Shown: piece after piece, positions 1,102-26,414 of the stretch
Layout of the letters: every line of letters starts with the position of its first letter
Numbering within the stretch: position 1 is the stretch's first letter
From: a virus
Length of the DNA: 34,731 nucleotides
Strand: one strand, 5' to 3'
IMG/VR virus record: IMGVR_UViG_3300038441_000486
Location: 1-34,731 of that record
Position numbers and translations under genes: made by a program
The notes under the pieces: generated by a model
What the model was told of the DNA's origin: nothing
The model's database searches: none
What the model saw: only the letters and a program-made list of their open reading frames with translations

Positions 1102-1123
1102 ACTTTTGCTGAGAAGGAAGCAC

Positions 1124-4835: not shown

Positions 4836-4836
4836 C

Positions 4837-5621: not shown

Positions 5622-5629
5622 GAAAGCGA

Positions 5630-5647: not shown

Positions 5648-5664
5648 ATCATGGGAGTACTACC

Positions 5665-6093: not shown

Positions 6094-6095
6094 GC

Positions 6096-6461
6096 ATGAA
6101 GCCGCTCGAATCTAAAGTCGAGCGGGACGCATGCGGGGACGCGTTGAACAAACTTCGCGTCCCCAACATGAAGATGCTGCATACAGGGGGCGAAACGGGC
6201 TGGCCTGATAGGGTGTTCTTCATAGAAGGCGGGCGGCCACTGCTCATTGAATTTAAGAGGCCGGGTGAGAAGAACGATACATCGCCTCGGCAAGAGTACA
6301 TTCATTCTATCCTAAGGGAACTAGGGTATGACGTCCAAGTCCACGACAACAAAGACGAGGCGCTTGAAGCCGTCCGGTCCGCCAAAATGGACGCCGCACG
6401 GCTATCAAAAGCGAGCCATAAAATTCGCGCTCGAAAGGCAAGCCGCAGGGCTGCTTCTTGA
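6096..6461 (+). CDS. VRR-NUC domain nuclease
   Basis: A 121-residue stand-alone VRR-NUC (PD-(D/E)XK) nuclease. The core motifs are GWPDRVFFIEGG (D38) and LLIEFKRPGEK (E52, K54), followed by SPRQEYIHSILRELGYDV with Q66 and a final VQVHDNKDEALEAV strand-helix. Such small phage VRR-NUC proteins are usually next to a SNF2/DEAD helicase, as here, and are predicted Holliday-junction-type or flap nucleases. The last 45 codons, a basic tail beyond the core, overlap the helicase gene in another frame. Confidence 0.88.
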   Translation: MKPLESKVERDACGDALNKLRVPNMKMLHTGGETGWPDRVFFIEGGRPLLIEFKRPGEKNDTSPRQEYIHSILRELGYDVQVHDNKDEALEAVRSAKMDAARLSKASHKIRARKASRRAAS

Positions 6462-7821: not shown

Positions 7822-7882
7822 TGCTTGCAAGTCATCTTTGCGGGGTTTAGAACTGCTCGCTGCTGAGGAAGGGGAACACTTC

Positions 7883-8641: not shown

Positions 8642-8666
8642 TCCCCCTCGGCCCGGCTCCCCAAAC

Positions 8667-8701
8667 ATGGCCCCGTTGAGCATTCGGCTTGACGGGGCCA
8701 T
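8667..8701 (+). other. Strong 15-bp stem-loop before the glycosyltransferase gene
   Basis: ATGGCCCCGT at 8667-8676 pairs perfectly with ACGGGGCCAT at 8692-8701. The stem extends inward through two G-T pairs and three more Watson-Crick pairs to a five-base loop (ATTCG). TAGTACC follows rather than a U-tract. It lies between an unknown gene and the modification cassette, nine bases before the AGGAG of the next gene. It may be an mRNA processing or stability element, or a terminator that does not depend on a U-tract. Confidence 0.6.
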
Positions 8702-8722
8702 AGTACCACTAGGAGAACTGTC

Positions 8723-9523
8723 ATGCTCTTATACGTCCACAGCGCGGGGCGAGGTCATCTCCCCCTGCCTACGCTGGACACGCTGCTTGCCAGCAAGCAC
8801 GCGAACATCGTTAGGTTGGTCGTCCAGGCGGCCGAAGTGCGCAAGTACGCCCCGCACATTAACAAGCTGCCCGATACCGAGCAGTTGATCGTCCTACCGC
8901 CCAAGATAAAGCGCCTTAGCCCGACCCGGCAATGGCTGCTGGAAAATTGCCCAAGCAACAAGATGATATTGTTTGACGACGACCTCGCTTTCGCGGTTCG
9001 GCGCAAGGACGATATCACCAAGTTTCGCCCCGCTGAACCGGCGGACATTACCCGCATGATAGACATGCTGCACGATTACCTTGACAGGTACGTCCATGTC
9101 GGCCTAATGGCGCGGGAGGGCGGCAACCGCATCAAGACCGATGCCAAGGGCAAACCCGTCAAGCACTTGGAGGCGATTCGCATGATGCGCGTGCTTGGCT
9201 ACAACCGGGGAAATATGTGCGGCGCGCCCCGCTTTGACCGCCTGCCTACCAAGCAGGACTTCGACATGACCCTTCAGCTTCTCCGGACTGGCTACCCCAA
9301 CGCGGTCATCACAGAGTTCGTGCATAATCAGGCGGGCAGCAATACAGAGGGCGGCTGTAGCGCCTACCGCGACGAGGCGATGATGGCTAGGTCGGCCGAG
9401 TTGCTGCGCAAGCTTCACCCCGATTACGTCAAGGTCGTTACCAAGGAGACGAAGTCGGCTTGGGGCGGCGGCGAACGCGTGGACGTGCAGATATCCTGGA
9501 AGAAGGCATTGGCTAATGGGTGA
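8723..9523 (+). CDS. Glycosyltransferase of TET-associated (TAGT) type, probable DNA hydroxymethylpyrimidine glycosyltransferase
   Basis: A 266-residue GT-A-fold glycosyltransferase. The nucleotide-sugar/metal motif is a DDD triplet in KMILFDDDLAF (D85-D87). Downstream are REGGNR (131-136), the LPTKQDFDMTLQLLRTGYPN block (D179, D181), a GGCSAYRDEAMMARS segment and TKSAWGGGERVDVQISWKKA near the end. I recognise this set as the phage TAGT family, predicted to transfer sugars onto 5-hydroxymethylated pyrimidines in DNA. It has AGGAG before the ATG. The next genes include a pyrimidine hydroxymethylase, which would supply the acceptor group, so no TET dioxygenase is needed. Sugar donor and exact base are unknown. 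Confidence 0.8.
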   Translation: MLLYVHSAGRGHLPLPTLDTLLASKHANIVRLVVQAAEVRKYAPHINKLPDTEQLIVLPPKIKRLSPTRQWLLENCPSNKMILFDDDLAFAVRRKDDITKFRPAEPADITRMIDMLHDYLDRYVHVGLMAREGGNRIKTDAKGKPVKHLEAIRMMRVLGYNRGNMCGAPRFDRLPTKQDFDMTLQLLRTGYPNAVITEFVHNQAGSNTEGGCSAYRDEAMMARSAELLRKLHPDYVKVVTKETKSAWGGGERVDVQISWKKALANG

Positions 9524-9689
9524 CGAGGGGGCGAGGCTTTTGGCCGGTTGCTTGATACTGGCTGTGATTATGATGGCAATCCAATTATCAGGAGGCGCAG
9601 ATGCGTACGGCAGATTTAGCGAGATTTATTTGCGAGCGGGAGGCGGTTCGGATCAACAAGGAAACGGACAAGCCCAAGCCTTGGACTAG
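9516..9689 (+). CDS. Possible small membrane or secreted protein overlapping two genes
   Basis: A 57-codon frame begins inside the last codons of the glycosyltransferase gene (AAGAAGG lies ten bases upstream) and ends 89 bases into the following gene. It fills the otherwise unexplained 77-base gap. Its start reads like a signal or membrane segment: a charged MGDEGAR, then LLAGCLILAVIMMAIQL, then SGGADAYG, followed by a polar Gln/Gly tail. The C-terminal part is read in the overlap and may only reflect the other frame. It is plausible but unproven. Confidence 0.35.
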   Translation: MGDEGARLLAGCLILAVIMMAIQLSGGADAYGRFSEIYLRAGGGSDQQGNGQAQALD

Positions 9690-10464
9690 CGACCCAATTC
9701 TGCAGACCTACAGGTTCTGCAACGTACGGCGGGAGAACGACGCGGTCACGCGCTGGCTGCGGCGGCACTACTACCCGACCTTCGCTCAGGAGGACTACGT
9801 CGGTTTTGCCGCCGTAGTGGCTCGGCTGTTCAACCTGCCCGCTAGTCTGAACGATATAAAGGGCTTCGTCCTGCCGTTCAAGCCTGCCGCCATGCGCCGC
9901 GTTCTGGAGGATCGCAAGCGGGCGGGCGAGAAGAACTTCAATGCCGCCTACATCGTATCCACGAACGGCGTACCTATGGACAAGGTGCAGTATCTCATTG
10001 AGCGCGTACTCGGCCCGCTGTGGGCCAACCGCAAGGCGCTTCTCCCGATGCAATCCCTGGAGGAGTGGCACAAGCGGCTAATGGCGTTTGATGGGCTAGG
10101 CAGCTTCCTCGCTGCTCAGGTTATAGCGGACATGAAGTACATGCCGCCGCTGTACAAGGGGCGGAAGCCGACGAGCTATGCTACGGATTGGTGGACGTTC
10201 GCGGCCAGCGGCCCCGGCAGTCGCCGCGGTCTGAACCGCGTCTACAATTATCCGGTAGCCCAAAGCTGGAACGAGAAGGAATGGCGACAGCATCTTCTAC
10301 TTCTGCAGGAAGCGCTGAACAAGCTGCTTGATAAGAGCGACCTGTTCCGGGGCCACCCGCTTCACGCGCAGGACGTGCAGAACTGCCTGTGCGAGTTTGA
10401 CAAGTATGAGCGTATCCGCTTGGGCGAGGGTCGCCCGAAGCAACTTTATCCGGGAGCAGCATAA
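9601..10464 (+). CDS. Alpha-glutamyl/putrescinyl thymine pyrophosphorylase family protein (HMUDK helical domain)
   Basis: A 287-residue all-alpha protein of the aGPT-PPlase/5-hmdU DNA kinase helical-domain group. Signature blocks are FICEREAVRINKE (9-21), PWTSDPILQTYRFCNVRREN (27-46), a helix-hairpin-helix-like FDGLGSFLAAQVIADMKY (163-180), a conserved Asp-Trp-Trp (196-198) and GPGSRRGLNRVYN (204-216). In studied phages, relatives act on pyrophosphorylated 5-hydroxymethyluracil in DNA, replacing the pyrophosphate with an amine- or amino-acid-type group; others are fused to or paired with the kinase. No P-loop DNA kinase is visible in this window, so the partner must be elsewhere or the chemistry differs. 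The ATG follows AGGAGG. Specific substrate is inference. Confidence 0.82.
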   Translation: MRTADLARFICEREAVRINKETDKPKPWTSDPILQTYRFCNVRRENDAVTRWLRRHYYPTFAQEDYVGFAAVVARLFNLPASLNDIKGFVLPFKPAAMRRVLEDRKRAGEKNFNAAYIVSTNGVPMDKVQYLIERVLGPLWANRKALLPMQSLEEWHKRLMAFDGLGSFLAAQVIADMKYMPPLYKGRKPTSYATDWWTFAASGPGSRRGLNRVYNYPVAQSWNEKEWRQHLLLLQEALNKLLDKSDLFRGHPLHAQDVQNCLCEFDKYERIRLGEGRPKQLYPGAA

Positions 10465-10667
10465 TGGGAAGCGATATCGACCGATTGATAATGATTATCA
10501 ACGAAAACCAGAACGAAAGGCGCAGATGGAACGAGGACGCCCTTGCACAGAACTACGATGCTAATTACAAGCATCAAAAGGCGTCGGGCAAGGTGTACAA
10601 CGTCCTGCTCGTAAGGGCTTGCATAGAATTTTTGATACTTGTGGCGCTAATCGTAATCGCCCTGTAG
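10464..10667 (+). CDS. Small single-pass membrane protein
   Basis: A 67-residue protein whose start shares bases with the preceding stop (TAATG). The first 40 residues are strongly polar with many Asn, Arg and Glu (NENQNERRRWNEDA). The last 20 are hydrophobic (VRACIEFLILVALIVIAL), so it is probably a C-tail-anchored inner-membrane protein facing the cytoplasm. Function unknown. It lies between two base-modification genes, which may be chance. Confidence 0.6.
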   Translation: MGSDIDRLIMIINENQNERRRWNEDALAQNYDANYKHQKASGKVYNVLLVRACIEFLILVALIVIAL

Positions 10668-10678
10668 GAGAACAGATC

Positions 10679-11803
10679 ATGTCAACGTACGAAGCAAGAC
10701 ACCGCCCGTTCACGCAGAACATCAGCGTGCGCAACGTCAACGATGCGCTGGAGCATGCCCTGCGCTATCTGCCTTACAACAGCGAGGCCAGCGGCAGCCG
10801 AGCAGGCCGAGTAATGGTGAGCCACACTCCTGTGATCACCTGCTATGCTAACCCGTGCGAGCGCGTGCTGTTCAGCCCCATGCGGGACGCCAATCCGTTC
10901 TTCCACTTCATGGAAAGCCTGTGGATGCTAGCCGGGCGGGATGACGTCGCCTACCCGGTACTCTTTAACAGCACGTTCGGCCAGTTCAGCGATGATGGCG
11001 AACGGTTCTGGGGAGCGTACGGCTTCAGGTGGCGCAAGTGGTTCGGCTACGACCAGCTTAATCTGATCATCGAGGAGCTAAAGCGCGATCCCACAAGTCG
11101 GCGCTGCGTGCTGAGCATGTGGTCGCCCGGTTACATCGTGTTCCCAGACAGCGATACTACGGTTAACATGGTGCAGCCCGACCTGATGCAGGCACTAGGC
11201 GGCGGGAAGGACGTGCCGTGCAATACCAACGTCTTCTTCCGCGTGGTGGACGACAGCCTGGATATGATGGTCAACTGCCGGAGCAACGACGTGTTCTGGG
11301 GAGCGTACGGCGCGAATGCTGTGCATTTCAGTTTCTTGCTGGAATACCTTGCCAGCGCCATCGGCTGCAAGGTCGGGCGCTACTGGCAGAACAGCTTCAA
11401 CTTCCACGCCTACGTTGACAAGTTCCCCGAGGACAAATTCAACGCCTACAGCAACGACGCCCGCGCGCATAACCTGTACGAGACGGAGCAGCTTAAGCCG
11501 TTCCCGTTGATGGTCGGGCCGCGTGAAGACTGGGACCTGGACCTCTGCGTCTTCATGCGGTGGTCGGAAGTGGTAGGAATGGGGGACGACACGATGGCGA
11601 TCCCGCAATTCGACGAACCGTTTTTCAACGATGTAGCGGTGCCGATGCGACTGGCATGGATGAACCACAAACAGAAGGACTACGCCAGCGCCGACAGTCT
11701 CTGTAATCTCATCGCGGCAGAAGATTGGCGCGCCGCGTGCAAGGCTTGGATCACCCGCCGTTGGCAGCGGCACGCAAGAAAGGTAGACGGAAATGATCAG
11801 TAA
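10679..11803 (+). CDS. Thymidylate-synthase-fold pyrimidine hydroxymethylase, probable dUMP hydroxymethylase
   Basis: A 374-residue member of the thymidylate synthase/hydroxymethylase family. The nucleophilic cysteine is C181 in DVPCNTNVFFRV. A phosphate-binding Arg pair is TSRRCVLSMW (R141, R142); RSNDVFWG (201-208) matches the RSxD motif; GANAVHFSFLLEYLA carries N213 at the position where thymidylate synthases and dUMP hydroxymethylases have Asn, while dCMP hydroxymethylases have Asp; QNSFNFHAY follows. The length exceeds bacterial ThyA (264) and fits the phage clade. Given the neighbouring hypermodification genes, I infer dUMP to 5-hydroxymethyl-dUMP using methylene-tetrahydrofolate. Plain dTMP synthesis is the main alternative. 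The ATG follows AGGAG; an upstream frame start at 10619 overlaps the small membrane gene. Confidence 0.85.
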   Translation: MSTYEARHRPFTQNISVRNVNDALEHALRYLPYNSEASGSRAGRVMVSHTPVITCYANPCERVLFSPMRDANPFFHFMESLWMLAGRDDVAYPVLFNSTFGQFSDDGERFWGAYGFRWRKWFGYDQLNLIIEELKRDPTSRRCVLSMWSPGYIVFPDSDTTVNMVQPDLMQALGGGKDVPCNTNVFFRVVDDSLDMMVNCRSNDVFWGAYGANAVHFSFLLEYLASAIGCKVGRYWQNSFNFHAYVDKFPEDKFNAYSNDARAHNLYETEQLKPFPLMVGPREDWDLDLCVFMRWSEVVGMGDDTMAIPQFDEPFFNDVAVPMRLAWMNHKQKDYASADSLCNLIAAEDWRAACKAWITRRWQRHARKVDGNDQ

Positions 11804-13028
11804 GGAACTCCTACGTCAGCGGGTAGCGTTTATCCGTCAGGGCAGCGAAGTGGAGCGCTTCCACACAAAGCGCATGATACAGCGTAACGATGTCGGCCAT
11901 CACAGCTTCCACGTGGCTATGCTGGCCGACCTATTGGCGACCGCCGCTGGCCTGTCGGCCGGGATCAAGTACGACATCATGCGGGCGGCGCTCGCCCACG
12001 ACCTTGCTGAGCATATCGTGGGCGACATGCCCGGCGATGCAAAGCGGGAACTCGGCATCCGCGAGCAATTCGCTAGGTACGAGCAGGCCCGCTTTGATGA
12101 AGTAGGCATGGACTACGAGTGCATGCTTACTCCGGATGGCAGGCGCATCCTCAAGCTGTGCGACATGCTGGAAGGCGCGTTCTTCTGCGTTAGCGAGGCC
12201 AGCCTTGGCAACGCGCGCATCGGGCTGGTCTTCCGAAACTTCTGGGGATACATCCAGAAGTTCGCCCCGTTCAGCGAAGCGGAGCAAATTATCGTTGACT
12301 ACCTGCTGGAGCTGTGGAATCACTACGGCGTCAGCGATGCCCCGGCGTGGGGGCGGACCGCGCACAGCGAAGACTCATTAAAGGATGTAACCATCATGGG
12401 CCAAGACGAAGACGAACGCAGCGAGAGCATCACTTATCGGCCTAGCCCGCTGATGGATGTGCTGCGCACCGAAGAAGCCGAGGGCCGTGCTACTCCGCCG
12501 TCCATGTCCAATGCTCCTACGCTAGGGGGTGTGCCGGTGCCACAGCTACCCAAAGACGACACCAGCGACGATCGAGCGAGCCAGGATTTAACGACCGGGC
12601 CTCTGCATGCTCCGGCCAATGCCCGGCAGCACGGCGGGGACCACTACAAGGGCGTCGGGTACGAGCATTGGGATTTGGTGCTGGATACTAACATGAATTA
12701 TTTCCAAGGCTGCGCGACGAAGTACGTTACGCGGGCGCGGAAGCATGAGGCAGGATGCCGGCTCAATATCCTTAAGGCTATCCACTACGTTGATAAGCTG
12801 GGAGAGGCGGCCTTTGCCGGGCGTATCGGGCCAGCGAAGCGTACCGTGCCAGCGAACGCGGCCTATAGCAGCGAGCAGATAAACGAGTTCGCCGCTGCCA
12901 ATCAACTTAGCAACGGCGAACTCCAGATTATCAGGGACATTATCGCCTGGAGGCTTGATCAGGCGAGGGAGGGGCTGAAAGTGCTCTTGGGTGATTGTCC
13001 GGAGCAGGAACCACGAGCCGACCGCTAG
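11793..13028 (+). CDS. HD-domain 5'-deoxynucleotidase (YfbR-like) fused to DUF3310
   Basis: A 411-residue two-part protein. Residues about 20-190 are a YfbR-type HD domain: ERFHTKRMI, HHSFHVAMLADLL, then AALAHDLAEHIVGDMPGDAKRE, which gives the metal-binding histidines and the HD pair. Such enzymes dephosphorylate deoxynucleoside monophosphates. A polar linker (about 195-275) leads to DUF3310 (about 280-335: HYKGVGYEHWDL, FQGCATKYVTRA, NILKAIHYVDKL), a small phage domain of unknown biochemistry often annotated as nucleotide-kinase-like. Met202 (12396) has AAAGGA ten bases upstream and could start a separate 210-residue DUF3310 protein. In this pathway the nucleotidase could drain competing dTMP or dCMP pools. 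The gene overlaps the hydroxymethylase by 11 bases and the convergent gene by 89. Confidence 0.85.
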   Translation: MISKELLRQRVAFIRQGSEVERFHTKRMIQRNDVGHHSFHVAMLADLLATAAGLSAGIKYDIMRAALAHDLAEHIVGDMPGDAKRELGIREQFARYEQARFDEVGMDYECMLTPDGRRILKLCDMLEGAFFCVSEASLGNARIGLVFRNFWGYIQKFAPFSEAEQIIVDYLLELWNHYGVSDAPAWGRTAHSEDSLKDVTIMGQDEDERSESITYRPSPLMDVLRTEEAEGRATPPSMSNAPTLGGVPVPQLPKDDTSDDRASQDLTTGPLHAPANARQHGGDHYKGVGYEHWDLVLDTNMNYFQGCATKYVTRARKHEAGCRLNILKAIHYVDKLGEAAFAGRIGPAKRTVPANAAYSSEQINEFAAANQLSNGELQIIRDIIAWRLDQAREGLKVLLGDCPEQEPRADR

Positions 13029-13871: not shown

Positions 13872-14575
13872 TTCCATGCTCCCTTGGTTAGCGCCTTCTC
13901 AAACTCCATGGCGTAGCCCGCCACTAGGTCGGCGCGATCGGTTCCATTGATGATGCGGCGCGCGTTGCGGTACTGCTCGCGCGTTGGATTATTGGGCAGG
14001 TAGTCCCGCAGCTTCTTGCCGGTGAACCATCCTTCCAGCATGCCGTTAAGCATGATTAGCGTACTTATCTTGGGGTCCAGGGCTTGGTCAGGATTGGCGA
14101 TTAAATCGACCTCCTCGTGGCCTAGCTCACGCAATCGCTGCGTTGCGAAGCGGTAGTTCTTCTCCCACGTTAGCTGCACTTCCCCGCGCCCGTACCACGG
14201 ATAATACCGCAGGTTCTTGCGCCGCCAAGCATCGCTGACATTCAAACCCTCCCGCACCGCCTCCATCGTCTTGGCCGTCTCGTGGTACTCCGTTGCCAAC
14301 GTGTAAGCGCACCACGACAAGGGAAGCTGTCCGGCTGCGCACGTCAGGGTCATCTGTATGCCGTCAAACTGGCTCTGCGTCATAGTGGGGAACAACTCCC
14401 CGGCCTCGCCGCGAATGTAGTCGTAAAACTCGCTTGGCAGCATCAATCCGATGCCGTCATCAACCGCGTGGGGGAGGACGCTAGGCAGCGGCTCGGGCTT
14501 CGGCGCACACGCAGCATCAATGAATATGCGTAAGTCGTCCAGAGCCTTCCGGGCGTCGGCGCAGTTGGTAATCAC
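13868..14575 (-). CDS. Endolysin, GH19 chitinase/lysozyme-like
   Basis: A 235-residue peptidoglycan hydrolase of the GH19-like phage endolysin group. The segment LFPTMTQSQFDGIQMTL leads into the catalytic region WCAYTLATEYHETAKTMEAV (candidate acids E96, E99, E105) and the substrate-groove motif YYPWYGRGEVQLTWEKNY (124-141). No signal peptide or membrane segment is seen, so it should depend on a holin for release. It follows the putative holin with an ATGA-type overlap and precedes the spanins, forming a full lysis cassette. Residues 1-55 precede the GH19-like core and are not recognised. Confidence 0.88.
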   Translation of the reverse strand: MITNCADARKALDDLRIFIDAACAPKPEPLPSVLPHAVDDGIGLMLPSEFYDYIRGEAGELFPTMTQSQFDGIQMTLTCAAGQLPLSWCAYTLATEYHETAKTMEAVREGLNVSDAWRRKNLRYYPWYGRGEVQLTWEKNYRFATQRLRELGHEEVDLIANPDQALDPKISTLIMLNGMLEGWFTGKKLRDYLPNNPTREQYRNARRIINGTDRADLVAGYAMEFEKALTKGAWK

Positions 14576-15105
14576 TTGATCTTATCCTTCTCGGGCAGTT
14601 CGCCCTCGCCGGTAGGGGCCGCGTCGGCTATCTGCTCGGCCTTGGCGTCAGCGGCTTCAGCGACCTTCTTGGCCCCGGCTGCGGCTGCGGCGGCCTCGCC
14701 ACCTGTAGCCATTTCGAACTCGTTGCCTAGCACCTTGCCCTTGATAATGCGGCTGCTGATAACCAAGCCAAGGGACAGCAGCACGACGATGATGCCAACG
14801 CTGTCCAGTTTGGAGTTCCACGTCAGGGAATCCACAATGGTCGTAAGTACGCGGGCGACGGCGTCGTTAACAGCGGAAGGCCGCTCCCGCAGCAACTCGG
14901 TTATCAGTCGGTCGGTCTGCTGGTTGAACTTGTCCGTCTGTATCCACTTCAGCAGGGTCAGCACCATGGCCCCGCCGATAGTAGCGATAAGCGCGATAAA
15001 GGCCAGGAGGTCTCGGTGGCCCCAAGGCGGAAGCTTCGCGTACCGTACGAGCATGTACAGCGCGATGACGGCTGCTAGGCCGCCTATAATCATCACAACG
15101 ATCAT
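14572..15105 (-). CDS. Putative holin, three membrane segments
   Basis: A 177-residue membrane protein. Hydrophobic helices are at about 2-20 (IVVMIIGGLAAVIALYMLV), 33-52 (LLAFIALIATIGGAMVLTLL) and 103-121 (VGIIVVLLSLGLVISSRII), followed by an Ala-rich charged cytoplasmic-type tail (EAAAAAAGAKKVAEAADAK). It sits immediately before the endolysin with overlapping stop and start, the usual place of a holin. It is longer than a typical class I holin, so a different membrane role is possible. The ATG follows GGAGGACGTCA. Confidence 0.6.
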   Translation of the reverse strand: MIVVMIIGGLAAVIALYMLVRYAKLPPWGHRDLLAFIALIATIGGAMVLTLLKWIQTDKFNQQTDRLITELLRERPSAVNDAVARVLTTIVDSLTWNSKLDSVGIIVVLLSLGLVISSRIIKGKVLGNEFEMATGGEAAAAAAGAKKVAEAADAKAEQIADAAPTGEGELPEKDKIK

Positions 15106-17348: not shown

Positions 17349-19234
17349 TACTTTCCTCCTAGTACTCGCTTCGCAGCGCCATTGCCAAAGACAGCGTCAA
17401 ACTGCTGACGAGCAGCGGGCGACGGGTTCTTTCGCAGCAAGTCCTGCGCCTCGCGCGGGATGGCGACGTTGGAGCTAGCTGCTGACGCGCCTCCGCCTCC
17501 GCCCTTCTTGGTGCCGTTGCGGCGGTCAATGCGCCAAGCCCGATCGTAGCGCGCCCGTAGCTGCTTGGAATAATCCGCGATACGCTGGATATTCGCCTTA
17601 AGCTGCTGCGGTGACTGCCCCAAGTCCAGCGCATCAATGTTCTTCTGCAGCGTCTCCACTTCAAAGTTTGACACGTTGCCAAGCGCGCCACCTGTAGGCG
17701 ACATCTGGCGCATTTCGTCCAGGATGGTGAAACCGATCTGCGACTTCACCGCCTCCAGCTTCTTTTCGAAGTCGTAGGCATCGCCGCCGCGTAGGGACGG
17801 AATGTACGAGTTGACGCCGGTGGCTCGCTGGATGCCGGGATGCGACAGCAAGGCGCGGGCGGCCTCCTCCATGCGGATGGTCTTCTGCTTGATGCTTTCG
17901 AACGCTTGGTCCTGCTTCATCACCTTGTTCAGGTAGTTAGCGCCGCCGATAGGCTTGATCTCGCCCTTGACACGCTGCCAACGCACGCTCGGGCTAAGGC
18001 TCAGTTCCTCGACCTCTTCCCAAGTCAGCACGCTGCCGTCAGCGCCGCCCGCCGCTACCTTCTGCACGGGCGGAGTCTGGAAGTGCGTAACGACTCTTCC
18101 GGGGCCAGCCGCGCCGCCCTGTGGCGCTGGCGCGTTGCCTCCGACGACTCCACCGCCGCCGCCAATAACGCCCTTTAGATCATTTACGCGGTTCCGCCAC
18201 GCCTTAGCGTACCGCCCGTACTTCTTTGGGTCCTTCTGAACTAAGCGGTCGTGCCAGCCCTGCCGCAGCGCGAGATACTTGTTCGGATCACCGCCGCTGG
18301 CCTGCAAGAATTCCTTCGCGCGGGAGGGGTTGATGTAATACGTGTCGGCATGCACGGTCGCCAGCGGTCCGGGAAGATTGGCGGCCCCGCTCGGGTTCCA
18401 GTAGTCCTCCATATAAATCTGCTTAGCCTGCGCTTCCGTCAAGTCCTTAACATTCTGCGGCCAGCCGGGGCGCGGCCTGTACGATGCTTGGTTCACGCCG
18501 AAGTTGACAGGCGCACCATTGGCGTCGCTCGGCGCGTAGCCCCCCTCGTGCTGCCGCGTGAATTTCCAGGACGCTTCAACGTCCGACGGTGCTTGCATCG
18601 TATCCGGAACCGGGCCGGGCGCTGGCGCTGCGGTCGGCGCTGGCGTGGCTCCACCTTGCGGCTGACCGCCGTACGTGCGCGGCACGCTGATAACACTGCG
18701 GCCAGTCGCGTCGCTGCCCACCGACATGACCTGGTCAGCGTACGGGTTGCGGTAGACTTCGCGGCCACCCTTAACGATTGCGCTGCCGGGCGCGACCACC
18801 TGCATCTTCTCGTCGATATCATGCAGGATGGCGGGGTTGGCTATAATCATCTGCCGCCACTCGACGATCTCCTCGGGCTTCATGCCAAGGCCATCCACCA
18901 AGATGGGGGTCAGGGAATCGTACGCCGCGCCAAGCTTCTCCGGCGTCGAGTCCGGGGCCATGGCGGCGGGGCCGAGCAGACCGGTAACAGTCTTCAGAGC
19001 ATCCATCGCCTTGGCGCGCTGCGCTTCCTGCGCTGCTGTGGCGTCGGCCTGCACCTGACGGCGCATATTCCAGCCGATTACGGGGTCGACCTTGGTTACG
19101 CCTTCGATCGTGCCAGCCGGGTCCCGATCAAAGTTGACCATCGCCTGCGACAACTTCTTTTCTTTGCGTCGCTGGCGCCACGTATCGCCAAGAGCGATAG
19201 CGTTTTGTGCGAACGCCTCAAATCCATTAGGCAT
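17348..19234 (-). CDS. Ejection protein with internal GH108 lysozyme domain
   Basis: A 628-residue virion protein. Residues 1-195 are helical, followed by a Pro/Ala linker (about 195-215). A GH108-type muramidase domain spans about 222-353: FTRQHEGGYAPSD with catalytic E230 in the EGGY motif, GVNQASY, LTEAQAKQIYMEDYWNP, the Ala-Asp segment before YYINPSRAKEFLQ, and the closing RNRVNDL helix. A Gly/Pro linker and a helical C-terminal region follow. The arrangement suggests a virion-carried lysozyme that opens the cell wall during DNA entry, distinct from the GH19 endolysin used at exit. Its start overlaps the upstream gene by eight bases. Confidence 0.82.
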   Translation of the reverse strand: MPNGFEAFAQNAIALGDTWRQRRKEKKLSQAMVNFDRDPAGTIEGVTKVDPVIGWNMRRQVQADATAAQEAQRAKAMDALKTVTGLLGPAAMAPDSTPEKLGAAYDSLTPILVDGLGMKPEEIVEWRQMIIANPAILHDIDEKMQVVAPGSAIVKGGREVYRNPYADQVMSVGSDATGRSVISVPRTYGGQPQGGATPAPTAAPAPGPVPDTMQAPSDVEASWKFTRQHEGGYAPSDANGAPVNFGVNQASYRPRPGWPQNVKDLTEAQAKQIYMEDYWNPSGAANLPGPLATVHADTYYINPSRAKEFLQASGGDPNKYLALRQGWHDRLVQKDPKKYGRYAKAWRNRVNDLKGVIGGGGGVVGGNAPAPQGGAAGPGRVVTHFQTPPVQKVAAGGADGSVLTWEEVEELSLSPSVRWQRVKGEIKPIGGANYLNKVMKQDQAFESIKQKTIRMEEAARALLSHPGIQRATGVNSYIPSLRGGDAYDFEKKLEAVKSQIGFTILDEMRQMSPTGGALGNVSNFEVETLQKNIDALDLGQSPQQLKANIQRIADYSKQLRARYDRAWRIDRRNGTKKGGGGGASAASSNVAIPREAQDLLRKNPSPAARQQFDAVFGNGAAKRVLGGK

Positions 19235-19973
19235 TGAGGAGCTCCTTGTAATCTACTGACATGAAATTGCCGACCTTCGGGCCAAGCGCACGCGGCACCT
19301 TCTTGGCGATCTCCTGCGCCATGACACCAATGCGCTTCACGGCGGTGGAAGGTTCGCCCTTGTACCGATAGGCGTGCAAGCCGATAGTCTTGCCGTCTAC
19401 CTTTATGGAGCCGATGCGTTCCTTGTCCTTCTTTAGCCGCTCGTCGCTAGGAATAAGCCCGGCGACGCCAAGACCAAAGTTCAGGAAGTTGCCGACGCCG
19501 CTGGCTTTGCCCTCGGCCTTCTGCGCGCGTAGCTGACCGATCTGCTCGGACGAATTGTTGCTCGCGCCCATCAGGTTGCCCATGACGCCAGCGCCGATAC
19601 CGGCCGACTGTAGCAGGCGATCCATGTAGTTCTCGCGATACTTCATGGCGTTGTCCTGGCCCCACTGCGTGAGAGCCTTCAGGGTGGAGCCGCTGTTAAG
19701 CAGGCCCTTCGCCGCCATGTTCTGATTGATGGCTTCCATGCCCTGCTTCGTGGTGAACTCGTAGTCACCCGATTGCAGATACTTCTGGAAAGCATCCTCC
19801 TGGCCCGCGCCAGTCAGGAAGCTGTTGTAGCTATTGAACGCATCGCCGCCACCAGTGACCCAAGGCGTCGCCATCGCCTTGTTTTCTTTGTAGACATCCT
19901 TGGCGAAGTCAAGCGCCTTATCCATCTGCTTGCTCGAGCCGCCGCCAAACAGGTTATTAATGATACCGCCCAT
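19227..19973 (-). CDS. gp7-like ejection protein with S74-type C-terminal domain
   Basis: A 248-residue protein. The N-terminus is Gly-rich (GGIINNLFGGGSS), the middle helical and Asn/Gln/Ala-rich (GMEAINQNMAAKGLLNSG), like P22 gp7-type injection proteins. The last 70 residues resemble the peptidase S74/intramolecular chaperone fold: SDERLKKDKERIGSI, IGLHAYRYKG, RIGVMAQEIAKKVP, FMSVDYKELL. This domain is best known at the end of tail spikes, where it assists trimer folding and is often cleaved off; in ejection proteins its role is unclear. The ATG overlaps the preceding stop, with AAGGAGG upstream. Confidence 0.75.
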   Translation of the reverse strand: MGGIINNLFGGGSSKQMDKALDFAKDVYKENKAMATPWVTGGGDAFNSYNSFLTGAGQEDAFQKYLQSGDYEFTTKQGMEAINQNMAAKGLLNSGSTLKALTQWGQDNAMKYRENYMDRLLQSAGIGAGVMGNLMGASNNSSEQIGQLRAQKAEGKASGVGNFLNFGLGVAGLIPSDERLKKDKERIGSIKVDGKTIGLHAYRYKGEPSTAVKRIGVMAQEIAKKVPRALGPKVGNFMSVDYKELLNA

Positions 19974-20383
19974 CACTGGCCTCCTTCAAAGACAAAATGT
20001 TCTTGCTGCGTGTCGGAACCTAGGGACCGGAACCCGACTATCCTACATAACAAGCGGCACGCGCGCAACTGCAAGGGTATCGCCGCCACAATCTTAGACG
20101 CATCATAACGCTGCCGCAGGTCGTCCATGCACCACTTGATGGCTTTGCGGGCTATGCTGCCGCGCCCGTGCTTAAGGAACCCGACATGGATTTGGTAGAC
20201 GCCGGGGCGCAGCCCGACGAATATCACAATGCCGTGGCCGTCCTCACAAGCATATATCACGTTGTTCGGATTGCTCAGCAATTCCGCGGAGGACACGTAA
20301 TGATCCCCCTGCTCGATCGTGGGCCGCACGTCCGGGTGATTGGCTATGGCGTCAACCAGCTTATATGATCTTGTCTTGAACAT
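19973..20383 (-). CDS. GNAT-fold protein, P22 gp14/DUF2824-like
   Basis: A 136-residue protein resembling the N-acetyltransferase-like DUF2824 group found in P22-type phages. Visible elements are a central strand pair (NVIYACEDGHGIVIFVG), IHVGFLKHGRGSIARKAIKW, which resembles the acetyl-CoA pyrophosphate loop and helix, and LRACRLLCRIVGFRSLGSD at the end. It lies between the tail-fibre-like gene and the gp7-like gene, where P22 has gene 14. Enzyme activity is not proven; in P22 the gene product is linked to assembly or injection. The TGATG overlap with GGAGGG upstream supports the start at 20383. Confidence 0.65.
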   Translation of the reverse strand: MFKTRSYKLVDAIANHPDVRPTIEQGDHYVSSAELLSNPNNVIYACEDGHGIVIFVGLRPGVYQIHVGFLKHGRGSIARKAIKWCMDDLRQRYDASKIVAAIPLQLRACRLLCRIVGFRSLGSDTQQEHFVFEGGQ

Positions 20384-21291
20384 CAATTGCCCTCCGGACT
20401 ATTGATGCGGTACTTGCAGTTGATCTTATTCGCGAGTGTGTCGTTTGGCACGCGAATGTAAATCTTGTTCGTCGTCACGCGCAGATTGGTGTTGGCAGTT
20501 CTCGCGGACTTAGCGTCTATGCTATTAGCGCGGGACGAAATGCGATCATTGGAACCCGACTTCCCAAGATGAATAATCATCCTTATCTCATGCGCGCCGG
20601 ACTCAACTTGATTGACCGTGCCGCCGCTTATCGCGGTGCCAGCGCCGCCAATCGTATCGTAGCTGTACAGAACCCAATTGTTATCGTTCTGTATGACTGA
20701 CATATAACAATTGTTCACGTCAGGTGATATGGCGATCGCCATGTATTCAGTCGCGTCCCTGTCGCACTGCAAGACCATTTCTATCTTATCGGTGCCGGTA
20801 AGCGTTATGGATTCTGACGAAGCAAACCAATTACCGCTGTTCCACAGAGCAGAAGTAGTCGTGAAAGTCAGGTTTACCCAATCGCTGCCGCCGGAAGGAT
20901 CCTCCCAAGCCGGGTCCGCGCCAGCGTCATGCGTCGTGAGCACTTGCCCATCATCGCCGGGCGGCAGGCGTTCCCATTCGGTCGCACCGCGGAACAGAAT
21001 ATCGCCGTGGTCCGTGCCGACCATAAAGTCCAGCACTTCGGTCAATGTAAGCTGCTCAACGGGGCCAACGCCGCTGTCGTCACGGGCTATGATGCGAAAT
21101 TGGTCCACGCTCTGTAGCCCGGCATCTACTGCATCGTCGGTCGTAGCCTTCTCCTCCAGCAATTGCTGAAGCAACTGGATAAAGTACGGTGTCGGCGTGC
21201 CCGGCGTCTGTCCGTGCAGGCCGCCCGGCATGCCTTCCGCGTGGATAAGTGGCACGTCATGCTGAAGAGGGTTTAGTTTAGTCGTTGCCAA
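20383..21291 (-). CDS. Tail-fibre-like protein with TTG start
   Basis: A 302-residue structural protein. The start is set at TTG 21291 because GAGGAGGG lies five bases upstream; there is no ATG in frame near it. Residues about 80-130 contain the fibre-type motif VLDFMVGTDHGDILFRGA followed by TEWERLPPGDDGQVLTTHDA and DPAWEDPSGGSDW, seen in many phage tail fibres and adhesins. The C-terminal 170 residues are Ser/Thr/Asn-rich beta sequence and could be a carbohydrate-binding head. The gene overlaps the previous one by 14 bases. It occupies the place of the needle or spike gene in P22-like order. Confidence 0.7.
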   Translation of the reverse strand: MATTKLNPLQHDVPLIHAEGMPGGLHGQTPGTPTPYFIQLLQQLLEEKATTDDAVDAGLQSVDQFRIIARDDSGVGPVEQLTLTEVLDFMVGTDHGDILFRGATEWERLPPGDDGQVLTTHDAGADPAWEDPSGGSDWVNLTFTTTSALWNSGNWFASSESITLTGTDKIEMVLQCDRDATEYMAIAISPDVNNCYMSVIQNDNNWVLYSYDTIGGAGTAISGGTVNQVESGAHEIRMIIHLGKSGSNDRISSRANSIDAKSARTANTNLRVTTNKIYIRVPNDTLANKINCKYRINSPEGN

Positions 21292-22537
21292 CTTTACCCT
21301 CCTCTTCGCCAAGGTCCACGTCCAGCGCGTTGATGCGGCGGGTGTATCCAGTATCAATGATCTCGAATATCATACCGGGCTCGGTTATTTGGCCGAGGCC
21401 AACCCACGAAATGTCGTACACTTCGTCAATCTGGTCCATGACTAATTCGCCATGGTTAGTCCAGCTTAGGCCCTCGTCCACACTAGTCCGCAGGGTGATG
21501 CCCACGCCCGCGCTAGCTGGCGCGCCCTGAGCCACTGTAAGAGTCGCTCTGTAGCATCCTAGCGCGTTGCGCAGCCGCAACGGCAGCATGCCGCGAACGA
21601 CAGTGCGGATATTCGTGCGAGCCTCGATGCCACCACCGGAATCGTCGTCGCTACGGGCTTCTGGATCGATGTTCCACATAAGGCCCGCCGACAAATCCCC
21701 GCCAACATTTTCCTGTTCCCAGGCGAAGCCATCTATGGCGCGCCAGCCTTGGATAAACGGGCTCTTCCACGAACACCATTGCCGCGTGAGGCAGTCGAAC
21801 ACGATTGTCTTGCCGTTGCCTAAGTTCAGCACGTAGAAGTCGTGATCGTCCTGCGGGAAGTGCCATGCGCGGGCGCGCCGGTCATCCGCGCCAAACTTGA
21901 TAAGCAGACGCACAAGCGCCTGACTTAACTGCGCCTCCCCGAATGCACCGCCAGCCATAACACGGGCGCGCACCTGTGACGCCTGTGCTTCCTCGGCGGG
22001 GTAGCTGATCAGCGTGCGAACTCGCAGTTGGGACGCGCGCAGTTGCGCCGCCTCTTCGCCCAACAGCGTGCGGGCGCGGGCCTGCGTCAGTCGTATGTTT
22101 GCCGCCGTAAAGATGGTCCAGGTGCGAGTCTCGCCCGCCACCCACGCGGCCATCCCGCTTACCGACCATTTTTCGTGGTACGTTACGTCGTCGTCCGACC
22201 ACTCAATGAATATGTTACGCGGGTCTTCGCGCGCGCTGTCCGTGCGAACTGTGTAGACAACTTCCTGGATATCCTTTTCGTTGCCAGCGCCGAAGTCGTA
22301 CTTCCACCAATGCCCGCCGGAAGGCGGCGCGTTTCCGCCGGTGGTCCACATGGTCGCGCCGTTGTTATCTACGGCATTAGCGGCGGCGATGAACGCGGCG
22401 GAGGCGCTGGCCGTCCCCGAGCCGGTTAGGTCCGGCCCGGCTGGCGTTCCTCGCAGCTCAATTTCCATTGCGCCCATGTAGTCACCAGAAATAGTGGTGT
22501 CATTGGAACGCAATCTCCAGTAACGGTGGGCTACCAT
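21278..22537 (-). CDS. Chimeric tail protein: discoidin-like domain, 18-residue repeats, C-terminal half of gp10-like tail hub
   Basis: A 419-residue mosaic. Residues 1-145 look like an F5/8 type C (discoidin) carbohydrate-binding domain: HRYWRLRSNDT, MGAMEIELRG, GGHWWKYDFGAG, IFIEWSDDDVTYHEKW. Residues 152-213 are three full and one partial copy of an 18-residue Q-x-R-x-R repeat. Residues about 216-419 match the C-terminal half of the P22 gp10-type packaged-DNA stabilisation protein: RARAWHFPQDDHDFYVLNL, TIVFDCLTRQWCSW, GWRAIDGFAW, LRTSVDEGLSWTNHGE and a strand-rich end. The N-terminal half of that protein is encoded 2.2 kb upstream. A hub protein in two chains with adhesin domains is inferred. 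Confidence 0.72.
   Translation of the reverse strand: MVAHRYWRLRSNDTTISGDYMGAMEIELRGTPAGPDLTGSGTASASAAFIAAANAVDNNGATMWTTGGNAPPSGGHWWKYDFGAGNEKDIQEVVYTVRTDSAREDPRNIFIEWSDDDVTYHEKWSVSGMAAWVAGETRTWTIFTAANIRLTQARARTLLGEEAAQLRASQLRVRTLISYPAEEAQASQVRARVMAGGAFGEAQLSQALVRLLIKFGADDRRARAWHFPQDDHDFYVLNLGNGKTIVFDCLTRQWCSWKSPFIQGWRAIDGFAWEQENVGGDLSAGLMWNIDPEARSDDDSGGGIEARTNIRTVVRGMLPLRLRNALGCYRATLTVAQGAPASAGVGITLRTSVDEGLSWTNHGELVMDQIDEVYDISWVGLGQITEPGMIFEIIDTGYTRRINALDVDLGEEEGKVGND
21899..22084 (-). repeat. In-frame 18-residue (54-base) protein repeats
   Basis: Residues 152-169, 170-187 and 188-205 of the chimeric tail protein are aligned repeats beginning QARAR, QLRVR and QVRAR and ending in RAS, QAS and QLS; a fourth partial copy starts QALVR. 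DNA identity between copies is low, so these are old protein-level repeats. They lie exactly between the discoidin-like domain and the hub segment, as a spacer. Confidence 0.7.
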
Positions 22538-22540
22538 GAG

Positions 22541-23647
22541 TTATACCGTCCTATCAATCTCGAATAGCATGTCGTCAACTTCGCTAGGCGTCCATGCTGC
22601 CAACGTATCCGGCGAGATGTACGACTTGTCCCACCAATATGTGGAAGCGATAGTAATCGGCCTGTCATCGCCGGGGTCCCAATCGACGCCGTTAGGCGAC
22701 ACGCGCATCAGCACTTGGCAATCACCGCCGTCCGTCTTAACTAGGCGGCCAATGGGCATGACGGCTCGCACACTGATAACGTCCGGCGGCAGGTTGGTCA
22801 TGGTGAACACGGTTGGCGCGGGCAGAGTATTATCCGCGCTGATGTAATCGCTGTCTACCGGGCCGCTGTCGCCCTCGTCCACCAGATCGAAGCCGGTGCT
22901 GCCGGTGGACGGCGTCCAGCCAAGCGAATCGTCGCCATCCGGTATGATATCGTGCACGGCGACCGCTCCTTGGAAGTCGTTGATGTACGAGCCAGTGCCG
23001 TCCCAGAATACCACGTCCTTGTAATATACTTCGCGCCCGTTGACCTGCGTGCTCTCCGCAGCCTGCCCGATAGTACCGTTCGCTATGTCAGTCGCTCCCA
23101 AAGCCAGCCCGGAAAGGTTGACTTTCAAGATACCGTTGACCTTGATCTGTATCGTACCCGCGCTAGCGTGCCGCACGATCTTTGTCTCAACGTGGTTGTA
23201 GGCGTTGGCAATCACGGAATTTGGGTCGCTCGTGTAAAGCAGCGTTCCAGCAGCGTTGTAGACCAAGAACTGCCCGGAAGCTCCGACTTCCATGTAAGCG
23301 ACATAAGTGTTCGCCAGCGTCCTGAACGCCCAATGAGCGTTGCCCTTATTTGTGTCGCCGATCGGAAATTGGTTCAGCCACAGGCGGAAGGCTACGCCAG
23401 CGGTGGAAACGGCGGCCGGAAACGTCAAACGAGAAAATATGAGACTCCACGACCCAGTCGAGCTGCTCTGGTTAAACCTGAGAACACGACCGTTGGCGCC
23501 AATCGTGGGATCGGGGTCATTTACGATGGTTGTGAAATTGCCCGCGAATGCTCCTTCGTGCGCGGCCCAGATGCCGTTCAGCATATAGTCGCGGTTTGAA
23601 CCGTAAAGCCCTTTCTGCCCCGAGGGGAAATCTGCCCATATAAGCAT
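22541..23647 (-). CDS. Adhesin-like tail protein, paralogue 2
   Basis: A 368-residue protein, tandem paralogue of the gene just upstream. Both begin with the same 16 residues (MLIWADFPSGQKGLYG) and share a closely similar end of about 140 residues, from GTGSYINDFQG to TPSEVDDMLFEIDRTV. The middle, about 15-225, is diverged but of the same plan: a beta-rich LamG/concanavalin-like region with FRLWLNQFPIG, AYMEVGASGQFLVYN and NHVETKIVRHASAGTIQIKV. This pattern suits a surface-exposed binding module held between fixed attachment ends. Receptor recognition is inferred. The ribosome binding site AAGGAACGAAG is part of a repeat shared with paralogue 1. Confidence 0.72.
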   Translation of the reverse strand: MLIWADFPSGQKGLYGSNRDYMLNGIWAAHEGAFAGNFTTIVNDPDPTIGANGRVLRFNQSSSTGSWSLIFSRLTFPAAVSTAGVAFRLWLNQFPIGDTNKGNAHWAFRTLANTYVAYMEVGASGQFLVYNAAGTLLYTSDPNSVIANAYNHVETKIVRHASAGTIQIKVNGILKVNLSGLALGATDIANGTIGQAAESTQVNGREVYYKDVVFWDGTGSYINDFQGAVAVHDIIPDGDDSLGWTPSTGSTGFDLVDEGDSGPVDSDYISADNTLPAPTVFTMTNLPPDVISVRAVMPIGRLVKTDGGDCQVLMRVSPNGVDWDPGDDRPITIASTYWWDKSYISPDTLAAWTPSEVDDMLFEIDRTV

Positions 23648-23657
23648 CTTCGTTCCT
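23601..23657 (-). repeat. Direct repeat copy 2 (57 bases)
   Basis: It matches 24732-24788 with a single mismatch. It spans the ribosome binding site, start codon and first 16 codons of paralogue 2. Sequences beyond it differ at once, so this near-identity is much higher than in the rest of the paralogues. Confidence 0.9.
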
Positions 23658-24778
23658 TAAACTGTGCGGTCAATTTCAAACAGCATGTCGTCTACTTCGC
23701 TCGGCGTCCAAGCACCACTCGTGTCGGGCGATACGTACGACTTGTCCCACCAATACGTGTTCGCCACCGTGATAGGGCGATCATCACCGGGGTCCCAATC
23801 CACGCCGTTGGGGGAGACGCGCATTAAGACTTGGCAGTCGCCGCCGTCGGTCTTGACGAAGCGGCCAATGGGCATAACAGCCCTAACCGCGATAACGTCC
23901 GGCGGTAGGTCGGTCATGGTGAACACCGCTGGCGCTGGCAAGGTGTTATCCGCGCTGATGTAATCTGCGTCGTCTGGGCCAGTGTCGCCCTCGTCTACAA
24001 GGTTGAAGCCTGTCACGCCAGTGGAAGGCGTCCAGCCCATGGAATCATCACCATCTGGCACAATGTCGTAGACAGCGATGTTACCCTGGAAGTCGTTGAT
24101 ATAGGAGCCGGTGGTATCCCAGACCACGAGGTCCTTCCAATAGACCCCCATGCCAGTTCCGCCGCTGCCGTCAATGCCGCCCATTTGGAACTGCGCGATA
24201 TTGCTGGAGCTCAGCGCCAGCCCGCTAAGGTTCAAGTCGGCCACAGCCAGCCCGGCCACCTTAACCTGGAGAGCGCCCGTGCCCGCGCCCTTCGTGACCT
24301 TGAATTCCACTAGCTGCCAAGCATTCGCGGTCAATACTGGCGTAGAAGTTCCCAGCGGCGTGCCGTTCATGCCGTTGCTGTCCGCACCCGAAACGGCGAC
24401 AATCTGCCCGGTCGTTGACACGCGTAACGTGAGAATATCTGTGTTGTCGTTCTTGCGGAAGGATATGTAGGGACAGTGAGTAGAATCGACGGGTAGGGAG
24501 GACATCCAAAGCCGCACGCCGATACCAAGCGTTGTGACTTCAGCGGGCAGGGCAAACCGCGCGCCGGTGGACGAGTTGCCCGACGAGGAAGTGGATGCCG
24601 GGGTGTACAGGACGAAGCCGTCGCTGCCAATCTCCGGATCAGGGTCGGGCTGCAACCCGCTGGTGAACGGGTTGTCAGAAGCGGAGTAGAACTGCGCCCA
24701 GATGCCGTTCAGCATCTTAGACTCATCTTGGCCGTAAAGCCCTTTCTGCCCCGAGGGGAAATCAGCCCATATAAGCAT
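23657..24778 (-). CDS. Adhesin-like tail protein, paralogue 1
   Basis: A 373-residue protein with the same plan as its downstream neighbour: identical first 16 residues, diverged LamG-like middle (GIGVRLWMSSLPVD, LTLRVSTTGQIVAVSG, WQLVEFKVTKGAGTGALQVK) and a conserved end. It starts eight bases past the truncated hub gene. No signal, membrane or catalytic motif is seen. A trimeric fibre tip or decoration attached to the tail hub is the simplest model. Confidence 0.72.
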   Translation of the reverse strand: MLIWADFPSGQKGLYGQDESKMLNGIWAQFYSASDNPFTSGLQPDPDPEIGSDGFVLYTPASTSSSGNSSTGARFALPAEVTTLGIGVRLWMSSLPVDSTHCPYISFRKNDNTDILTLRVSTTGQIVAVSGADSNGMNGTPLGTSTPVLTANAWQLVEFKVTKGAGTGALQVKVAGLAVADLNLSGLALSSSNIAQFQMGGIDGSGGTGMGVYWKDLVVWDTTGSYINDFQGNIAVYDIVPDGDDSMGWTPSTGVTGFNLVDEGDTGPDDADYISADNTLPAPAVFTMTDLPPDVIAVRAVMPIGRFVKTDGGDCQVLMRVSPNGVDWDPGDDRPITVANTYWWDKSYVSPDTSGAWTPSEVDDMLFEIDRTV

Positions 24779-24788
24779 CTTCGTTCCT
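24732..24788 (-). repeat. Direct repeat copy 1 (57 bases)
   Basis: Partner of 23601-23657 with one mismatch, covering the same start region of paralogue 1 and reaching the last two bases of the truncated hub gene. Such a repeat allows homologous deletion, duplication or exchange of the whole upstream adhesin gene. Confidence 0.9.
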
Positions 24789-25665
24789 ACTCCAAGCCCT
24801 GCTGAGCGATAGCATCGCGGATCATCTCCGCGATACCGGGGTTGCTGATCGGTTCCGGGCCGCCCTTAACGTCGTACACCTTGCCGTCGGCCCCGACGAC
24901 AATAACGCTATCCTTGATCTTCACTGCCGTGCCGCCCCAGATACCGCGGTCGAACAGCCGCCCTTCGATACGCTGGAAGGGAGCGGCGGCGTTGCCTGTG
25001 TGACGCCACACTTCAGTCGTCTTACGGCCAAGGAGCCAGAATTGATCGCCAACGGTGCGAACCTGTAGCAGCCAGTCCGGCGATCTCTCAGCTTCAAAGA
25101 AGTTCAGCGGGTCAACGACTATTTCGCCGGGGTTTATCCAATAGCACCGCTGCGAGTTGCCCACGACGACAATCGTGTAGTGGTTGATAGAATCCAAGCT
25201 GACCGGCGGCACGTCGTCCGGCATAACGATACCGGCCAGCGCCGCCACGCCATCGGTCTGCAATAGCTGAACACCGTCAGCGATAAACACGCGCGGGTCA
25301 ATATTGCGAATGCAGATGTCCGGCACCGACATGGGGTCGTCGAACGCGATGAGACCCGGGATGAGCGTGACCTGGTCAGCTAGCTGCGTGCCAGTCACCG
25401 GGTCGTACTGCTTCGCGACACGGAACAATTCCTCGCCGGATATCACAAAGGCGTCGTTTCCAAAGCACCCTTCTTCGTACGTGCCTTTGCGCCAAGGGCC
25501 AGTTCCGATCTCCGTGCGGTAGCGCAACGCCGGGCGCAGCAACAGCGAGACATTTTCGATCAGGTTAGTTGGGTTCTGCTCAAAGAACAGATTTTCAATG
25601 ATAATCTCCGGCTCCTGCCCGCGATTGCGGCGGAAGGCGTCAATGGCGAGGCGTATCTTCGTCAT
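24787..25665 (-). CDS. N-terminal half of gp10-like tail hub / DNA stabilisation protein
   Basis: A 292-residue protein that resembles only the first part of P22 gp10 (472 residues), the hub that seals the packaged head. Visible are IIIENLFFEQNP, RPALRYRTEIGTGPWRKG, then beta-propeller-like strands, WLLQVRTVGDQFWLLGRKTTEVW, FDRGIWGGTAVKIKDSVIVVGADG and ISNPGIAEMIRDAIAQQGLE. In P22 the chain continues after the equivalent of that last helix; here a stop follows, and the missing part is found at the end of the gene at 21278-22537. The two parts sum to about 496 residues, close to full length. The start overlaps the gp4-like stop (TAATG). Confidence 0.78.
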   Translation of the reverse strand: MTKIRLAIDAFRRNRGQEPEIIIENLFFEQNPTNLIENVSLLLRPALRYRTEIGTGPWRKGTYEEGCFGNDAFVISGEELFRVAKQYDPVTGTQLADQVTLIPGLIAFDDPMSVPDICIRNIDPRVFIADGVQLLQTDGVAALAGIVMPDDVPPVSLDSINHYTIVVVGNSQRCYWINPGEIVVDPLNFFEAERSPDWLLQVRTVGDQFWLLGRKTTEVWRHTGNAAAPFQRIEGRLFDRGIWGGTAVKIKDSVIVVGADGKVYDVKGGPEPISNPGIAEMIRDAIAQQGLE

Positions 25666-26414
25666 TAGCTCATCCACAAATCGCTGCGCGGGGCCGGGCC
25701 TTCGTCGTCCCAACCACGCCTGCCGGTATCGCTCATACGCAGGACCGCCTCAGGCGCTCGTACGTTGCGCTTCTGCCTGTAAGTGGCCCGCAACTTGGCA
25801 AGGCTGTCCTGAAGAGTGTTAGCCGTCTCCGGCTTCACACTGCGGCCATAGCGGGGATTAAGTCGCATCGCCAGCGCCGTCTCAAAGTAATCATCAAATT
25901 CAATAGGAAACGGCAGCTCGTCGTCCGCCTCCAGCAGCGTCAGGCGCACCCATTCTCCCAAGTCGCTGCGATACATCCACGTCAGGTTGGCGTTGTCCAT
26001 GTTAACGACCAGGAACTCGGCCCCCTCAATGCGCTTGCCGCCAGCGTGCAGCGTGATGGGGAAGGTTGCCATTGTGCCCTTCAAGTCCACCAGCCCGATG
26101 CGTGCGCCATTGTCCGGCCAAACGGGCAAGTTGATCGTTTGTGTGGACTCGTCGGTAACCATCAGCCGCACATTGGGCGGCGGGCTTTGCCAATCAGACG
26201 ACGACCAGTTGGCTGAAACCGAGCTAACGCCCTCGGTTCCGACGGGGAACTCAAACAGCTTGGTTCCCACCTTGTTGCCGAAGACACCGGCGATCAAACT
26301 ATTCAGCTTTGCCAACCCCTCCGCTTGCTGTTCCGCGTTGAGCGTCGCCGTGGCAAGAGCAAGAAGGTTGCTCTCGCGCAAAGCGCCCCGTATGATCGCC
26401 AGTGCCGTCGTCAT
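25665..26414 (-). CDS. gp4-like head completion / tail accessory factor
   Basis: A 249-residue protein in the place of P22 gene 4, between coat-associated genes and the hub. It starts with a helical segment (AIIRGALRESNLLALATATL, then EGLAKLNSLIAGVFG), has a beta-rich middle, and ends with helices (ALAMRLNPRYGRSVKP, TLQDSLAKLRATYRQKR) as in P22 tail accessory factors. It would bind under the portal and connect it to the hub. The assignment rests on pattern and gene order; sequence similarity is modest. Confidence 0.68.
   Translation of the reverse strand: MTTALAIIRGALRESNLLALATATLNAEQQAEGLAKLNSLIAGVFGNKVGTKLFEFPVGTEGVSSVSANWSSSDWQSPPPNVRLMVTDESTQTINLPVWPDNGARIGLVDLKGTMATFPITLHAGGKRIEGAEFLVVNMDNANLTWMYRSDLGEWVRLTLLEADDELPFPIEFDDYFETALAMRLNPRYGRSVKPETANTLQDSLAKLRATYRQKRNVRAPEAVLRMSDTGRRGWDDEGPAPRSDLWMS

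Follow-up and report, generated by a model that had tools for sequence, protein, structure and literature searches.

A gp10-type tail hub gene divided at one site in a clade of short-tailed phages, with varied modules encoded at the break

The tail hub protein gp10 of phage P22 (PDB 8u10, 8eap, 9jg6; Sf6, 7sg7) is encoded by one continuous gene, and the hub or needle-head proteins of the cyanophages Pan3 and Pam1 (9vyg_M, 7eeq_1), which are the closest solved relatives of the proteins described here at about 28% identity, likewise come from intact genes of 442-446 amino acids (aa) without any insert. Nozzles of T7 (gp12) and SU10 consist of seven blades of four strands, with both chain ends contributing to a platform, and they carry modules between or on the blades, namely the nozzle tip, immunoglobulin (Ig)-like nozzle domains between blades 2 and 3, and a fibre-dock loop on blade 1 (PMC6702177, PMC9509320). 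Here we describe a gp10 gene that is divided in two, with a cassette of other genes in the break, in the IMG/VR record IMGVR_UViG_3300038441_000486, a metagenome contig of 34,731 bases that was analysed over its whole length (hereafter the window). The nearest precedents are the inter-blade domains of the SU10 and T7 nozzles and the doubled adaptor gene of PhiGT1-like phages. The former share the seven-bladed propeller with extra domains in inter-blade openings, but they are single chains whose insertions are continuous, without a chain break, and lie at other blades. The latter podoviruses also show a two-gene variant of the hub ring in a P22-like lineage (PMC10386132), but those two genes are whole adaptor (tubeA) paralogues rather than the parts of a divided tubeB/gp10 gene. 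In the open-access literature, where absence is not proof, no account of a split gp10 or nozzle was found.

According to the preliminary description of this DNA, the 292-residue product of one open reading frame (ORF) matches only the first part of the gp10 family, the remainder reappears in the gene at 21278-22537, and the join between them is clean, all of which profile searches bear out (Table 1). In the head closure Hc3 profile of the gp10 family (phrog_578, 486 positions), the first product, here called the N-half, covers positions 24-280, and residues 218-304 of the other gene, which contains the C-half, cover positions 285-371 (E 1e-15), so that the two matches abut without overlap; the remaining profile length is covered when the profile is extended on relatives. 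In the same manner, the Pan3 hub 9vyg_M (446 aa) is matched by the N-half over residues 99-259, its best stretch, and by the C-half over residues 273-437, and the Pan3/Pam1 linker at the break site can be aligned directly. The profile and fold of P22 gp10 are covered by both chains of the window together. PHROGs recognises both halves as gp10 and Pfam recognises neither. The two ORFs lie 2.2 kb apart and their gp10-homologous parts 2.9 kb apart, and the continuous polypeptide of the gp10 family is not found. Because gp10 is spread over two ORFs, with no further copy beyond the two halves in a phrog_578 profile search of the window, this arrangement represents a variant of gp10.

The gene holding the C-half begins with a discoidin-like domain followed by repeats, as had been proposed from the sequence. 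PF00754 matches residues 43-124 (E 2.5e-8, 34.5 bits against a Pfam cut-off of 28.2), and by this score the discoidin domain is real. The repeats, read as IRLTQARARTL, LRASQLRVRTL, AQASQVRARVM and AQLSQALVRLL, follow the pattern '.RxSQxxV', and similar short repeats precede the gp10 part of the C-half in most relatives, and also in most of those with a separate middle gene.

Single-sequence scans of viral contigs returned almost no relatives, and the clade was recovered by an alignment-based scan of IMG/VR, which fetched 80 loci; a second scan, for which intact homologues were the starting point, listed 80 loci, few of which had been retrieved before. Classification with iterated profiles of each half covered 172 loci, some of them overlapping copies of one contig, and gave 75 split loci with both halves as separate genes, 83 intact ones, and 11 with the N-half only, mostly where the fetched DNA ends. 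Dereplication at 85% left 53 split and 41 intact loci; those with only the N-half were taken as split if the frame closed ahead of the end of the contig. In intact genes the N-half runs into the C-half through a linker with a median of 9 residues (7-18) between the two half profiles, and split N-chains end at a median of 11 residues past the profile end, from which it follows that the break site is identical throughout; the halves of split loci are separated by 746-3907 nucleotides. Each of 18 viral records (35-51 kb) and the 2.9-Mb genome of Sphingomonas segetis holds one N-half, one C-half and no intact copy, one of these records being the prophage contig of that same genome. A second Sphingomonadaceae genome, a single contig of 4.36 Mb, has the N-half directly followed by a gene in which a module and the C-half are fused. 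The other matching genomes among the 399 of this family mostly carry gp10 in a single frame of 450-510 aa, and isolate phages searched with both halves had intact gp10 only among the records inspected.

In regard to the origin of this arrangement, a maximum-likelihood tree of the N-half, whose root was not inferred, places all 53 split sequences on one side of a branch (ultrafast bootstrap 100, Shimodaira-Hasegawa-like approximate likelihood ratio test, SH-aLRT, 99) that is present in all 200 bootstrap trees checked. A quick N-half tree gives the same picture and has intact lineages on either side of its midpoint root, and an independent tree of the C-half separates split from intact genes with one change (SH-aLRT 94). 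Since the outgroups, cyanophage and Vibrio-type phage hubs among them, all have intact genes, the split is the derived state. The split genes form one clade, broken once in its common ancestor. Furthermore, ratios of nonsynonymous to synonymous substitutions (dN/dS) lie between 0.01 and 0.20 for the N-half and the C-half alike in those close pairs whose dS could be estimated, and both halves are under purifying selection and not decaying.

Structure predictions with AlphaFold2 gave a confident model of the N-half (alignment of 87 relatives; predicted local distance difference test, pLDDT, 90; predicted template modelling score 0.84) and, for the C-chain (77 relatives), a pLDDT of about 90 over residues 221-410. 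In Foldseek searches against the PDB, the models of both halves independently rank the same six gp10-family chains first (Pan3, Pam1, three entries of P22, and Sf6) and match complementary parts of these solved structures. When predicted strands are grouped in fours, the N-half model comprises part of the platform, five four-stranded blades and a C-terminal helix, and the C-half model two blades followed by a beta-sandwich that would be the rest of the platform. Because this grouping gives five and two blades, and T7 and SU10 nozzles have seven, the break probably separates blade 5 from blade 6 in a seven-bladed propeller. By these models, neither chain alone would be able to make a complete propeller or platform.

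The break is occupied by genes of varied kind. Two tandem adhesin-like genes had been noted there in the window, and they prove to be paralogues of 373 and 368 aa with matches to phrog_2448, 62% identical, with a common start motif and nearly the same leader. Usually the halves are separated by one gene, similar to concanavalin A (ConA) or laminin G, and in the window by two; two middle genes were also seen in L040 and L071. A Pfam search of the two window genes gave no match. Within the family, the member in L076 matches Laminin_G_3 weakly, below the cut-off, and those in L024, L055 and L089 have ConA/laminin-G-like matches above it. The phrog_2448-like family is the first gene after the N-half in 34 of the 42 dereplicated loci, with the remaining eight falling into six unrelated groups, and within the fetched flanks it stands beside 60 split loci and no intact one. 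Most relatives encode the middle gene as an ORF of its own. In seven loci (L018, L027, L039, L044, L051, L060 and L088) a module from one of several unrelated families is fused in frame to the C-half, and the N-half of L050 carries fused Hoc-like Ig repeats; fused and separate forms have changed into each other at least four times on the tree. L052 (12116-13653) has two tandem copies of the gp10 C-half, of 327 and 184 aa, and the N-terminal extension of the first is a different one.

Identities of the N-half and the C-half are strongly correlated (Spearman 0.82), whereas those of the N-half and the middle gene are correlated at only 0.42. Loci L039 and L051, for example, share 82% of the N-half and 77% of the C-half but only 22% of the module. 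Such covariation of the halves, with the middle gene running apart from them, is the pattern that would be expected of a hub with two constant parts and a variable one at the break.

Most split N-halves also hold an insertion of about 110 aa (e.g., L076, 8001-9263), which is absent from those of the window, L014 and L134, and which lies about where the first blade of the window has the turn from the third to the fourth strand. This module recurs in other genes of these phages, including the ORFs of about 715-740 aa that L024 and L089 have as middle genes, and it appears to be shuffled within the phage; a Pfam search with it gave no named family.

Taken as a whole, the hub gene was split once at one site, and we consider it likely that its halves fold together as one subunit and that the break carries exchangeable binding modules. 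The break in the common ancestor would fall in the short linker that joins blade 5 to blade 6, and the gene has since been inherited as two, which would be translated separately and whose products would assemble in trans into one subunit of the hexameric hub. Five blades and part of the platform would come from the N-chain, and the other two blades with the remainder of the platform from the C-chain. At the break each hub subunit would have a free C-terminus and a free N-terminus, and these ends, together with the gene space between them, could carry exchangeable surface-binding modules, usually as a separate ConA/laminin-G-like gene, sometimes as a fusion to the C-chain, and in one case as Ig-like repeats joined to the N-chain. 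The C-chain of the window would in addition present the discoidin domain on a short repeat stalk, and since this chain itself carries the domain, a hub that assembles would hold at least this module by a covalent link. If displayed on the virion, the modules may serve host recognition. The preliminary description had already suggested a hub of two chains with host-binding modules at one loop. As a gene arrangement, the two-chain form is strongly supported, being shared by a clade of 53 or more dereplicated lineages; modules of lectin-like, Ig-like and other kinds are encoded at exactly the break site, which would correspond to one loop on the virion; and in no close relative did the 292-aa protein prove to be a complete domain. 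On genomic grounds, a two-chain hub with modules at one loop is well supported.

Other explanations of the locus have different weight. The adhesin genes could simply be passengers that landed in an insertion-tolerant break, with products that are soluble or separately attached tail proteins. Genes of the phrog_2448 kind stand free in tailed phages without this hub, such as Tetraselmis viridis virus S20 and Mesorhizobium phage Cp1R7A-A1, where the homologues of the middle genes are not inside a gp10 gene, and the middle gene of most split loci is likewise not joined to either half. We nevertheless consider this unlikely, as it does not account for the in-frame fusions of unrelated modules to the C-half and, in L050, to the N-half, for the occurrence of the middle family beside split but never intact genes, or for the short repeats kept before the C-half where the middle gene is separate. 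It has also to be considered that the domains were redistributed, the N-half alone being a working hub and the C-half merely an adhesin anchor, given that the N-half alone is predicted with high confidence and that the C-half always stands at the end of the module-carrying chain. Such a propeller would, however, lack two blades and most of the platform, and the C-half keeps its gp10 fold, is under purifying selection similar to that on the N-half, and has diverged in parallel with it, which makes this scenario improbable.

A further possibility is that the halves are rejoined after transcription or translation, by a self-splicing intron, a split intein or trans-splicing, giving a full-length gp10 in the virion, with which the clean break and the normal summed length of the parts would agree. 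We regard it as very improbable: no Rfam family, introns included, was found anywhere in the window, Pfam found no intein in either half, the N-half ends too soon after its profile to leave room for an intein half, and the insert is made up of whole genes, each with a start of its own, which in some relatives form in-frame fusions with the C-half. Intron and intein were rejected on these grounds. Finally, a metagenome contig could suffer from assembly error or frameshift, or hold a dying gene with an intact copy elsewhere, but the same arrangement in L001, in 53 dereplicated lineages from many samples and in two Sphingomonadaceae genomes, together with the low dN/dS and the lack of an intact copy, led us to reject assembly error, frameshift and pseudogene, and the chance of such an artefact is negligible.

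Several points nevertheless weigh against the two-chain hub with modules at its break. Attachment of the separate middle protein to the hub is the weakest link, and this protein could be an ordinary tail protein that happens to be encoded there; the free-standing members of phrog_2448 in unrelated phages mean that hub attachment of the middle genes is not required. Besides, most of residues 1-211 of the C-chain model, which hold the discoidin domain and stalk, have a pLDDT below 50, the blade count relies on predicted strands from two separate models, and the window is a linear contig that may be incomplete.

The window also matches a portal, terminase large subunit, scaffold, P22-type coat protein (P22_CoatProtein) and ejection proteins, and its virus is a P22-like short-tailed phage. 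The N-half follows the portal, scaffold, coat protein and a weak adaptor match, which is the place of gp10 in the late operon of P22, except that two genes with a cassette in the break stand there instead of one. Replication genes, including DNA polymerase and helicase, lie at 1106-13028 on the plus strand, and structural genes at 13868-34372 on the minus strand. The gene after the C-half (20383-21357, with a start probably near 21290) resembles a needle or fibre and has an N-terminal PTPYFIQLLQQL motif, also seen in L092 (TPFFQQMIQQL). At 19227-19976, an ejection-protein-like N-terminal part (phrog_598) continues into a C-terminal chaperone-of-endosialidase domain (Peptidase_S74, E 2e-6), which is an unusual combination; L092 looks similar at 14101-14823.

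Table 1. Features of the divided hub locus, in window coordinates.
Feature	Position	Strand	Evidence
Probable gp4-like adaptor, upstream of N-half, fixing the late-operon context	25665..26414	-	phrog_637 head-tail adaptor Ad3, weak, E 8e-4
gp10/Hc3 N-half gene, 292 aa, ATG 25665 to stop 24787	24787..25665	-	phrog_578 24-280/486, E 2e-25
First middle gene, 373 aa, phrog_2448 adhesin-like family, start MLIWADFPSGQKGLYG	23657..24778	-	phrog_2448, E 8e-13
Second middle gene, 368 aa, tandem paralogue of the first	22541..23647	-	phrog_2448, E 2e-13
C-half gene, 419 aa, ATG 22537 to stop 21278 (discoidin domain, short repeats, gp10 C-half)	21278..22537	-	
Discoidin-like (F5/8 type C) domain, N-end of C-half chain, approx. 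residues 3-141	22115..22531	-	PF00754, PF22633; phrog_11660 tail protein, E 5e-16
About four repeats of ~18 residues, approx. residues 147-215 of C-half gene	21893..22099	-	read from sequence
gp10/Hc3 C-half proper, residues 216-419	21281..21892	-	phrog_578 285-371; pLDDT ~90; Foldseek

Related to this, a bolder reading, which we put forward only tentatively, is that the lineage nicked its DNA-gating hub between blades, and that the free ends could act as a universal socket for swapped receptor-binding modules, whose binding could act on the blades that hold the DNA. The modules, whether lectin-like, discoidin, Ig-like or propeller-like, would then be swapped on and off the gate itself. A stable break of a propeller that occurred one time and was kept in a diverse clade would represent a split-protein system of natural origin, placed in a gate that has to stay tight. 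The break also marks a site of the hub that tolerates foreign modules, and because of this tolerance, the transmission from receptor binding to the hub would become testable in environmental phages.
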